Made by a program: the position numbers and the translations under genes. From the NCBI GenBank assembly GCA_019636815.1, contig JAHBWT010000004.1, positions 1 to 64,000 on the forward strand: a DNA stretch of 64,000 nucleotides, in the 5' to 3' direction. Shown here in pieces: positions 29,238-34,838 of the stretch. A model generated the notes under the pieces. It was not told where the DNA came from, searched no databases, and saw only the letters and a list, made by a program, of their open reading frames with translations. The stretch is from Nitrospira sp. (GTDB lineage Bacteria > Nitrospirota > Nitrospiria > Nitrospirales > Nitrospiraceae). Each line of letters begins with the position of its first letter. Within the stretch, counting starts at the first letter, position 1.

Positions 29238-30152
29238 TTAGATCCGGGTCAGCCAAGGCTCGTGCGCAGCATCTTCGCCACGCACGATTGAAAAGAAAGC
29301 GTTTTGAAGGGTTCGTGTGATCGGTCCCGGCGTGCCGTTTCCGATTCGACGGTTATCGATTTCTCGCACCGGGGTCAACTCAGCCGCCGTTCCGGTCACG
29401 AAGACCTCGTCGGCAATGTAGAGTTCATCACGCGTGAATCGTTCCTCGACGATGGCAATGTGTCGTTCTTGAGCCAGCTGCATCACAGAACTTCTCGTAA
29501 TCCCCTCGAGCACCGAGGTCAACGGCGTCGTTTTGAGTATACCCCGACGGATCATGAACACGTTTTCACCGGTTCCTTCGGCGACATAGCCTTCGGGATC
29601 CAGAAGAATCGCCTCGTCATATCCATCAGATTTCGCCTGTAGCTTCGCCATAATGGAGTTCACATAGTATCCGGATATTTTCCCTCTGGTCATGGACACG
29701 TTCACATGATGTCGCGTGAATGAGGAGATACAGGCGCGCATCCCATTCGCCAACGCCTCGTCTCCTAAATACGCCCCCCACTTCCACGCGGCAATGGCGA
29801 CACGAATGGGATTATCTCCCGGATGCACACCCATCGCCCCATACCCGATGTAGACCAGTGGGCGAATATAGCAGGCGTCGAGACGATTGATGCGAACCGT
29901 TTCCACGATGGCCTCGGCGATCTGCTTCTTGTCATACGGCATGATCATCATGCCGATATGGGCTGAATCGAACAGCCGGTCAACGTGCTCCTGAAGCCGA
30001 AAGATGGCGGAACCCGATTTCCCCTTGTAACACCGGAGCCCTTCGAACGCGGCCAGGCCGTAGTGGAGCGAATGTGTGAGGATATGGACATTGGCCTCCC
30101 CCCACGCCACAAATTTCCCGTCCATCCAAATTTTTTCGACCGGCTCCAGCAT
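29238..30152 (-). CDS. ilvE: Branched-chain amino acid aminotransferase
   Basis: A PLP-dependent class IV aminotransferase of 304 residues, making Leu, Ile and Val. Motifs include LTHSLHYGLAAFEGLRCY near the start, CYIRPLVYIGYG, the PLP lysine region RGKISGYYVNSIMAKLQAKSDGYDEAILLD and EGTGENVF. It converges on secG across about 100 bp. The PilZ gene lies upstream on the same strand, separated by 105 bp. Confidence 0.95.
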   Translation of the reverse strand: MLEPVEKIWMDGKFVAWGEANVHILTHSLHYGLAAFEGLRCYKGKSGSAIFRLQEHVDRLFDSAHIGMMIMPYDKKQIAEAIVETVRINRLDACYIRPLVYIGYGAMGVHPGDNPIRVAIAAWKWGAYLGDEALANGMRACISSFTRHHVNVSMTRGKISGYYVNSIMAKLQAKSDGYDEAILLDPEGYVAEGTGENVFMIRRGILKTTPLTSVLEGITRSSVMQLAQERHIAIVEERFTRDELYIADEVFVTGTAAELTPVREIDNRRIGNGTPGPITRTLQNAFFSIVRGEDAAHEPWLTRI

Positions 30153-30257
30153 TGGTGGCGATCTCCTCGGCTTAAGGATAATCGTTGCAAGTTCGTGTGC
30201 CGAGTGGAATATAGCGTGAGGCTACTCGGGGGTCAAGCAAACGGACCGGTCACGAGA

Positions 30258-32566: not shown

Positions 32567-33669
32567 TACAGGCTAAACGGATCGTCATCAAAATCGGCAG
32601 CAGCTTGCTCGCATCACGTGCGGAGGGCCTCCGGCCTGAACAGATTGAACGATTGGCGGATGAGATCGCCATGCTCCGAGCACAGGAGCGGGAGGTTCTC
32701 ATCGTCTCATCCGGTGCCATCATTTCCGGCATCCGAAAGTTGGGACTGAAAGATTACCCCAAAAACCTTCCGGTCAAGCAGGCAGCGGCAGCCGTCGGAC
32801 AAAGTCGACTAATACGGGCCTATGAAAAGGCCTTCGAGCGTCTCGCAATTCAAGTGGCACAGATCCTTCTGACGCACCACGACCTCACTGACCGCCGTCG
32901 CTTTCTCAATGCTCGCCATACCCTTTCAGCGCTTATCGGGTTTGGCATCATCCCCATCATCAACGAAAACGACACGGTTGCAGTGGACGAAATTCGAGTC
33001 GGCGACAACGACACCCTCGCGAGCGAAGTTGCTCACCTATCCGATGCAGATTTGCTGGTGATTCTTTCAGATGTCGATGGATTGTACACGGAAGATCCGC
33101 GTAAAAATCCCTCCGCCATCTTGATTCCACTCGTTCCTGAGGTCACTCCGGATATCGAACGCTTGGCGGGAGTTTCCAGCACATTTGAAGGCACTGGCGG
33201 GATGACCACTAAGCTGCGGGCGGCGAAGAAAGTCGCAGAGTATGGAATTCCGACGTTGATTATCAACGGCGAGCGGGCCGGACTCCTGCCGGCGGCCCTT
33301 GCAGGACAACCAGGAGGAAGCCTCTTTCTCGCTAAAGAACGCCGCTTGAACAGCCGCAAACATTGGATTGCCTTTACGCTGCGCTCCCGCGGCCAGGTAT
33401 ATCTCGATCAGGGAGCGGTCGAGGCCTTGAGCGCGCGTGGCAAGAGCCTACTTGCGTCTGGCATTCTCCGGGTGACCGGTCTATTTGAGGCCGGCGATCC
33501 GGTCAGTTGCCTCACGCCAGAAGGGAAGGAGTTCGCAAAAGGTCTTGTGAACTTTTCGTCCGACTCATTACATCAGATGAAAGGTCTCAAGACCGCGGTC
33601 ATTCAAGCGCAGTTTGGTCCCCAAGAGTACGAGGAAGTCATCCATCGAGACAATCTCGTCATTCTCTAG
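32548..33669 (+). CDS. proB: Glutamate 5-kinase with PUA domain
   Basis: First step of proline synthesis, phosphorylating glutamate. A 373-residue protein: amino acid kinase domain (about 1-255; VIKIGSSLL, NENDTVAVDEIRVGDND, GTGGMTTKL) plus a C-terminal PUA domain (from about 275). Overlap with obgE points to coupled translation. PutA in the same window catalyses the reverse pathway. Confidence 0.95.
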   Translation: MRDELLVQAKRIVIKIGSSLLASRAEGLRPEQIERLADEIAMLRAQEREVLIVSSGAIISGIRKLGLKDYPKNLPVKQAAAAVGQSRLIRAYEKAFERLAIQVAQILLTHHDLTDRRRFLNARHTLSALIGFGIIPIINENDTVAVDEIRVGDNDTLASEVAHLSDADLLVILSDVDGLYTEDPRKNPSAILIPLVPEVTPDIERLAGVSSTFEGTGGMTTKLRAAKKVAEYGIPTLIINGERAGLLPAALAGQPGGSLFLAKERRLNSRKHWIAFTLRSRGQVYLDQGAVEALSARGKSLLASGILRVTGLFEAGDPVSCLTPEGKEFAKGLVNFSSDSLHQMKGLKTAVIQAQFGPQEYEEVIHRDNLVIL

Positions 33670-33694: not shown

Positions 33695-34435
33695 ATGGAT
33701 CGTCCGACAGCCCAGCATACGACACCCGCCGCACAAGCCTTCTCCTCGAAACGCCTCGGCTTATTTGGTGGTAGTTTCAATCCCATCCACAATGGCCACC
33801 TGGCAATTGCACGTGACGTGCGTGCGCGCATGAACCTCGCGCGCATCCTCTTCATCCCGACCGGCGATCCGCCCCACAAGCACAACCGATCGCTAGCTCC
33901 CGCTCCGTTGCGGCTTGATATGGTACGCCTTGCGATCGCCGACACATCAGAGTTCGATGTGTCGGCGATAGAAATCGATCGTACTGGAACATCATACTCC
34001 ATCGACACAATCCTCGAAATACGAGAGCAGTACGGTCAACCCGTGGAGCTCCTTTTTATCATCGGCCTGGATGCATTCCTCAAATTCCCGACCTGGAGAG
34101 CGCCCGAAGAGATCTTGAAGATGTGCCACTTCGTAGTCGTACCTCGCCCGGGGCGATTATTCCAATCTCTCGCCGCGATCCCCTTATTTCAGAACCTGGC
34201 TCCAGCGCCACTAGAACAGCTCGATGCCGGTGTCATTGACAGGTTTGACATTGCCATCCCTGAGACCTTAGGAATCACCTGTTTGTCTATCCCTCCCTGC
34301 CCGATCTCGGCCTCAGAAATCAGACGGAGAATTCGGAACGGACTACCGCTGGCAAATATGTTGCCGCCCTCGGTAGAATCTTATATACTTCAGCATAGCC
34401 TTTATCAGGAGGAAAGCGATCGTACGCGCATCTAA
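33695..34435 (+). CDS. nadD: Nicotinate-nucleotide adenylyltransferase
   Basis: Makes deamido-NAD from nicotinate mononucleotide and ATP. Nucleotidyltransferase motif LGLFGGSFNPIHNGHLAIA, the PPHK loop and the C-terminal ISASEIRRRIRNG (ISST-like). The start at 33695 gives 246 residues, slightly long because of about 20 extra N-terminal residues. It overlaps the proposed start of rsfS. Confidence 0.94.
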   Translation: MDRPTAQHTTPAAQAFSSKRLGLFGGSFNPIHNGHLAIARDVRARMNLARILFIPTGDPPHKHNRSLAPAPLRLDMVRLAIADTSEFDVSAIEIDRTGTSYSIDTILEIREQYGQPVELLFIIGLDAFLKFPTWRAPEEILKMCHFVVVPRPGRLFQSLAAIPLFQNLAPAPLEQLDAGVIDRFDIAIPETLGITCLSIPPCPISASEIRRRIRNGLPLANMLPPSVESYILQHSLYQEESDRTRI

Positions 34436-34838
34436 GGCCACCGCCCTTGCCGCAGCCAGGGCGATGCTCGATAAGAAGGCTTTGGATGTTCAAGTCCTCC
34501 ACGTTGCCCCGCTTACGTCGATTGCTGATTACTTGGTTATTGGGTCGGCTGAATCGGACAGACAGACCCGCGCAGTTGCCGACTCCATTGTCGACGAACT
34601 CTCTCGTGTAGGCCAACGACCGCTGAGCGTCGAAGGTACTTCCTCAGGCCAGTGGGTCCTGATCGACTTTGGGGATGTCGTTGCCCATGTCATGAGACAA
34701 GATTCCCGTGCGCACTATGCGCTCGAGCGTCTCTGGAGCGACGCGCAACGGGTTCCTGTTCCTGACGAATCATCGATCGTAACCGCACCACTGAAACGAC
34801 GCATCGTCCGGAAGGCGAACCCGCAAAAAACGGTTTAG
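34419..34838 (+). CDS. rsfS: Ribosomal silencing factor RsfS, possible AUC start
   Basis: Binds L14 and blocks subunit joining under starvation. The core DKKALDVQVLHVAPLTSIADYLVIG is diagnostic. The first ATG in frame (34464) lacks the N-terminal helix of the family. The frame stays open upstream and encodes an Ala-rich helix (SKATALAAARAM) without any ATG, GTG or TTG. An AGGAGG at 34407-34412 lies six bases before an ATC at 34419, so this ATC is the best-placed start, giving 139 residues. The short ATG form would be 124. nadD ends at 34435, so the two overlap and are probably coupled. Confidence 0.85.
   Translation: MVRASKATALAAARAMLDKKALDVQVLHVAPLTSIADYLVIGSAESDRQTRAVADSIVDELSRVGQRPLSVEGTSSGQWVLIDFGDVVAHVMRQDSRAHYALERLWSDAQRVPVPDESSIVTAPLKRRIVRKANPQKTV

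Follow-up and report, generated by a model that had tools for sequence, protein, structure and literature searches.

The window analysed here, a stretch of 64,000 nucleotides of Nitrospira sp. DNA, carries on its forward strand the gene nadD (positions 33695 to 34435, with ATG at 33695 or TTG at 33614 as its start and a TAA stop at 34433-34435), followed by an overlapping frame for the ribosome-silencing factor RsfS (34419 to 34838, 139 codons and a stop). The frame is identified as rsfS by Pfam PF02410 (E = 3.8e-30, 104.4 bits against a cut-off of 21.6) and by the NCBIfam equivalog TIGR00090 (107.2 bits against a cut-off of 56.9). According to excerpts of PMC3400551, RsfS blocks subunit joining and works in stationary phase, and residues W77, D81 and R95 of the E. 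coli protein lie at its interface with uL14. The corresponding residues W79, D83 and R97, numbered with an offset of 2 relative to E. coli that was taken from chain 30qz_6, are invariant in 19 aligned RsfS sequences.

The start region of rsfS, on the same strand, consists of a Shine-Dalgarno sequence, AGGAGG, within the 3′ end of nadD (34407-34412), a six-base spacer, AAAGCG (34413-34418), of which offsets -5 to -1 are variable among relatives (entropy 1.3-1.9 bits), and an ATC triplet (34419-34421) that is the inferred start codon by virtue of its conservation in family genomes. The Shine-Dalgarno duplex energy is -10.3 at the ATC, against +1.1 at the first in-frame ATG (34464-34466), which specifies residue 16 and which we judge to be an internal methionine codon. 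A preliminary description had placed the start of rsfS at this ATC, overlapping the nadD stop and with no ATG, GTG or TTG in frame before the ATG at 34464; its coordinates all hold on re-reading, the overlap amounts to 17 nt, and the absence of canonical codons between the two candidate starts is confirmed. The rsfS frame is in fact open from 34377 to 34464 with no ATG, GTG or TTG found, and nothing among these three codons is usable as a start for rsfS in the window. The codon had been called non-standard, which is correct in the sense that it lies outside ATG, GTG and TTG; NCBI table 11 counts ATC among the permitted start codons.

The arrangement is not in itself remarkable. AGGAGG followed after six bases by ATC is expected 0.70 times per window in shuffled sequence and occurred at least once in 48 of 100 shuffles, so near to chance that a single sequence is no proof of a start. 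Among 64 long open frames of the window, picked mechanically and without obgE and nadD because both overlap their neighbours, an ATC with a Shine-Dalgarno energy below -9 lies within the first 60 codons of two: rsfS itself and the frame at 29241-30221, where the ATC is internal. The significance of the rsfS ATC is thus a matter of its conservation and not of the pattern as such.

Conservation of the ATC codon within the family

An rsfS match was obtained in 166 of 175 family genomes, of which 157 were fetched and 153 were readable at the start (L167 and L168 were dropped at contig ends, L197 and L199 for Ns). None of the 153 has ATG at the place of the window's ATC. ATC itself is present in 131, and the other 22, all of genus g14, carry AGC there with a GTG one codon upstream, so that no readable family genome lacks both; the AUC start proposed from the window sequence is thereby supported. 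Because of evident in-frame indels, the register of three loci (L062, L300 and L161) was adjusted manually; unadjusted, they read TCT, TCT and AAC. A second set of 80 named loci, 78 of them readable after L086 (N) and L089 (cut off) were dropped, gave ATC in 75 and AGC with the upstream GTG in three; the two sets overlap in assemblies and their counts are not summed. The complete genome of N. moscoviensis (NZ_CP011801) also has ATC at this position.

Outside g14 all three bases of the ATC are invariant (126 of 126 genomes) and the five preceding bases vary freely. The Shine-Dalgarno sequence upstream of them is retained, with G at -10 in 125 of 126 (the remaining one an N) and G at -8 in 124 of 126. 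The median energy of -10.3 before the ATC compares with +0.5 for the next canonical codon; at the ATC it is -8 or lower in 75% of the 126 loci, with Ns precluding a score for one of them, and the weaker values in a quarter of loci count against the start. Upstream canonical codons were considered as starts and rejected: in 81 of 153 loci there is none up to the nearest stop in frame or to where the fetched sequence ends, and those found, besides a GTG that adjoins the ATC place in 29 of 153 genomes, lie at least eight codons away at scattered positions. Five of the genomes with an adjoining GTG belong to genera other than g14 and have it directly before an intact ATC; these may use the GTG as start.

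The overlap with nadD allows the constraint on the ATC to be separated from that on the upstream gene. The nadD frame was located by tblastn in 125 of the 126 loci outside g14 (L322 gave no match), and its stop ranges from -14 to +29 relative to the ATC, which stays fixed. In 14 loci (L163 and L207 among them) nadD ends wholly before the ATC, and every one of the 14 retains it; in L027 and L028 the nadD stop shares the A of the ATC. In the 109 overlapping loci the T of the ATC falls at the wobble position of a nadD codon, GAT, AAT, CAT or TAT, and the synonymous NAC, which would destroy the ATC, is used in none of the 109. This wobble position that never turns to C, together with retention of the ATC where the genes do not overlap, argues for a functional start at the ATC and against a triplet present by chance. 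Inside rsfS, isoleucine is encoded by ATC 498 times, ATT 220 times and ATA 34 times (n = 752), and nadD coding may favour ATC over ATT where the genes overlap. On these comparisons the ATC is conserved between species beyond what other demands on the sequence would require.

The exception, g14, offers a natural experiment. Its 27 rsfS loci comprise three with ATC alone, two with GTG-ATC and 22 with GTG-AGC, a natural series of start codon replacement. In a tree built from the flanking nadD and rsfS DNA, in which the outgroup rows are long, the ATC-alone rows are basal and all 24 GTG rows form one clade (support 81/79), so that few independent events are represented. The GTG-ATC rows are nested among the GTG-AGC rows, as if the ATC was lost after the GTG had been gained, and the tree would allow that this loss possibly happened more than once. 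That the ATC gave way in loci with a GTG one codon upstream supports the ATC as a start of the gene.

Alternative accounts of the start

If translation began instead at the ATG at 34464 and the ATC were an ordinary upstream triplet, RsfS would lack its first 15 residues. This ATG is the first canonical codon of the frame, the first canonical codon stands at the same place (+15) in 97 of the 126 genomes outside g14, and the short form still scores above the NCBIfam cut-off. Against it, the ATG has no Shine-Dalgarno sequence (the energy of +1.1 given above); some relatives have CTG, ATC, TCC or TGC in its place; the next canonical codon is at least 19 codons down in 27 of 126 genomes and lies beyond K19-K20-A21, which is invariant in the 19 aligned RsfS sequences, in 26; and rsfS codons 5-15 are conserved mostly in the manner of coding sequence. 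The predicted structure has a helix at residues 2-18 (block-mean pLDDT 84-95; 19 sequences), and initiation at the ATG would leave only the end of this first helix, with residues 2-15 lost. A small second residue is expected where methionine aminopeptidase cleaves the N-terminal methionine. Counted from the AUC, the amino acid after the methionine is one of A, V, T, G, S and P in 125 of the 126 genomes outside g14, which fits a cleaved N-terminus and hence a start at this codon. By alignment offset, six of 16 distinct matched solved sequences (9q40, 30qz, 2o5a, 2id1, 6sj6 and 6sj5) have their first residue opposite query residue 3; 4wcw reaches two residues upstream of the ATC, and 28ye, 3ups and the organellar proteins deviate more. 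Taken together, a start at the ATG appears very improbable.

Slightly less probable again is that the ATC forms part of nadD or of an RNA signal and that RsfS is made by frameshifting from nadD. The two genes do share 17 nt, read in different frames, but the nadD stop moves across 125 loci while the ATC stays, 14 of the stops wholly precede it, and what is found upstream is a variable spacer followed by an invariant ATC. A base or assembly error in the window genome, a draft of 143 contigs, can be given a negligible chance: the ATC recurs in 131 of the 153 family genomes, including several assembled as a single contig (G053 and G115, for example), and N. moscoviensis has it too, which excludes a base error. 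Initiation of rsfS at the AUC is therefore, as judged from sequence comparison, very probable.

Putative weak starts of rsfS and infC across the phylum

Among 60 rsfS loci of other families, 33 have no in-frame ATG, GTG or TTG between the upstream stop, or a 25-codon limit, and aligned codon 7; the 60 are the 30 best-scoring of the phylum plus 30 chosen genomes from the order and class, so that this is no unbiased rate, and the 25-codon limit leaves room for starts further upstream, such as an ATG in L249. When one genome was taken from each of families f13-f40, 13 of 28 lacked such a nearby canonical codon (four loci are shared with the 60). As a control, 115 loci were read in the same way for nadD; its motif was recognised in 89, of which 86 had a canonical in-frame start no more than 25 codons upstream of the motif and three had none. 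In family f2 the place of the ATC is held by ATA in five of six loci and by ATC in one, and in three of the five a second ATC or ATA codon directly follows the ATA. In other classes 23 of 54 rsfS loci have a Shine-Dalgarno sequence and no canonical codon; the codon found 4-12 bases after it is TTA in 11, ATA in six, ATT in two, and GTA, GTC, ATC and CTG once each. TTA makes up 11 of 12 leucine codons at the start place, compared with 74 of 423 internally, and a UUA start of rsfS, if true, would be very unusual. A TTA lies 4-9 bases after the Shine-Dalgarno sequence in L212, L216, L219, L225, L228, L361, L362, L364, L370, L375 and L377. The distribution suggests that weak rsfS starts are older than Nitrospira. 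In E. coli K-12 (NC_000913), the one sample from outside the phylum, rsfS is annotated from TTG, and weak rsfS starts may reach beyond the phylum.

Such a start is known from infC, the gene of IF3 and the textbook case of autoregulation by that factor. Its start is ATT in E. coli and ATC in Streptomyces, according to parts of PMC5472188, and AUA in S. aureus, according to parts of PMC13009471. The consulted text of PMC5472188 further states that initiation at any codon but AUG, GUG or UUG is destabilised by IF3, that the non-canonical start of infC is the means by which IF3 autoregulates, and that repression of non-canonical starts by IF3 is documented for infC and sigR. In the genome of the window, an ATC follows AGAGGTGGCCT where infC is expected to start (read across codons), so that IF3 and RsfS share one weak codon there. 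Of 36 infC loci read in the family, 35 start with ATC and one, L122 of the same genus, with ATT.

Both rsfS and infC have non-canonical starts in families f1 and f2. In family f3 infC starts with ATG in nine of nine loci read (L111, L112, L113, L114, L132, L338, L345, L352 and L387), and this family seems, from its sequences, to have given up the weak infC start by which IF3 autoregulates elsewhere. Of 11 rsfS loci in f3, six (g28-g31) have a canonical-looking start and five (g24 and g32) ATT or ATC. In the six g14 genomes for which infC was read, infC starts with ATC in all and rsfS with GTG in four. A strict co-variation of the infC and rsfS starts, which we considered, is not upheld given the mismatches in f3 and g14.

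A possible link between IF3 and ribosome silencing

We propose that the strong AGGAGG places the 30S subunit so that initiator fMet-tRNA reads the AUC at 34419, with nadD translation perhaps delivering part of the ribosomes to the overlapping rsfS. The product would be methionine followed by a small residue, with its first helix complete. The weak codon would limit RsfS production and, if rsfS behaves as infC does, would expose rsfS to rejection by IF3; were IF3 scarce relative to 30S subunits, more IF3 and more RsfS would be made. Parts of PMC2268962 report that raised IF3 lowers re-initiation after an upstream gene, less so with a Shine-Dalgarno sequence, and because rsfS overlaps nadD this effect may matter here. 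The parts of the proposal differ in standing. That the AUC limits rsfS expression is probable on the sequence evidence; that IF3 sets the level of RsfS, which is argued by analogy, has an even chance. As a whole, an AUC start that keeps RsfS low, with possible exposure to IF3, is very probably the best explanation of the observations.

A serious competitor, somewhat short of even odds, accepts the AUC as start and sees in it a fixed low setting without regulation by IF3, the codon persisting because the nadD overlap and its history would make replacing it costly. The lack of a strict link between the rsfS and infC starts in f3 and g14 speaks for it, as does an AUU reporter of S. aureus cvfC1, which was low with no medium-dependent effect in the portion of PMC13009471 consulted. 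Persistence through overlap and history is harder to reconcile with the 14 loci that keep the ATC with no nadD over it, and with the recurrence in the phylum of rsfS loci that have no nearby canonical start and bear other codons after the Shine-Dalgarno sequence, as if weakness were kept and not one sequence. A broader version of the IF3 proposal would extend it to all Nitrospirota, with rsfS kept on weak, changing non-canonical starts (AUC, AUA, AUU and perhaps UUA) so that IF3 controls RsfS as it does itself, forming a switch that joins initiation fidelity, the level of free 30S subunits and ribosome silencing without a transcription factor. This extension is tentative, and we hold it to be somewhat less probable than not.

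Conserved non-canonical starts are already known from infC, sigR and ccpN, and rsfS is new to the list as far as the literature was searched. Like infC, rsfS starts outside AUG, GUG and UUG, and in the genome of the window both ATC codons follow a Shine-Dalgarno sequence; infC is described as autoregulated by IF3 (PMC5472188), and rsfS differs from it in overlapping nadD. The sigR gene of Streptomyces resembles rsfS in being stress-related, and gene finders likewise put its non-canonical start in the wrong place, but its start is GTC and its repression by IF3 was shown experimentally (both from PMC5472188), while the rsfS start is predicted from sequence; moreover sigR acts on transcription and RsfS on ribosomal subunit joining. 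S. aureus ccpN (AUA) and cvfC1 (AUU) share with rsfS a conserved non-canonical start and an extended Shine-Dalgarno sequence, and in poor medium their reporters reached about a tenth of what AUG versions gave; they are other genes, with starts mapped by ribosome profiling (PMC13009471, in the sections consulted), and the term rsfS has no occurrences in that paper. E. coli pcnB, going by the title of a cited reference, is likewise a chromosomal gene limited by a weak start, in that case AUU and with another function. E. coli K-12 rsfS belongs to the same protein family, and its annotated TTG is also non-ATG, yet it is a canonical alternative start; there, unlike in the window, cobC lies between nadD and rsfS. 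Among the matches listed in searches on IF3 and infC, on rsfS, ybeB and Iojap, on Nitrospira and on non-canonical starts, no title or abstract opening reports a non-canonical rsfS start, and a search on IF3 with hibernation gave no match.

The bacterial genes with a non-canonical start that have been characterised are few (PMC5472188), and gene finders limited to ATG, GTG and TTG truncate or misplace such genes. If rsfS keeps an AUC start in most members of this family of nitrifiers, a ribosome-silencing factor would join their number. Such a start suggests restrained production of RsfS, perhaps coupled to the proofreader of start codons, a testable link between IF3 and the shutdown of ribosomes in slow-growing bacteria.
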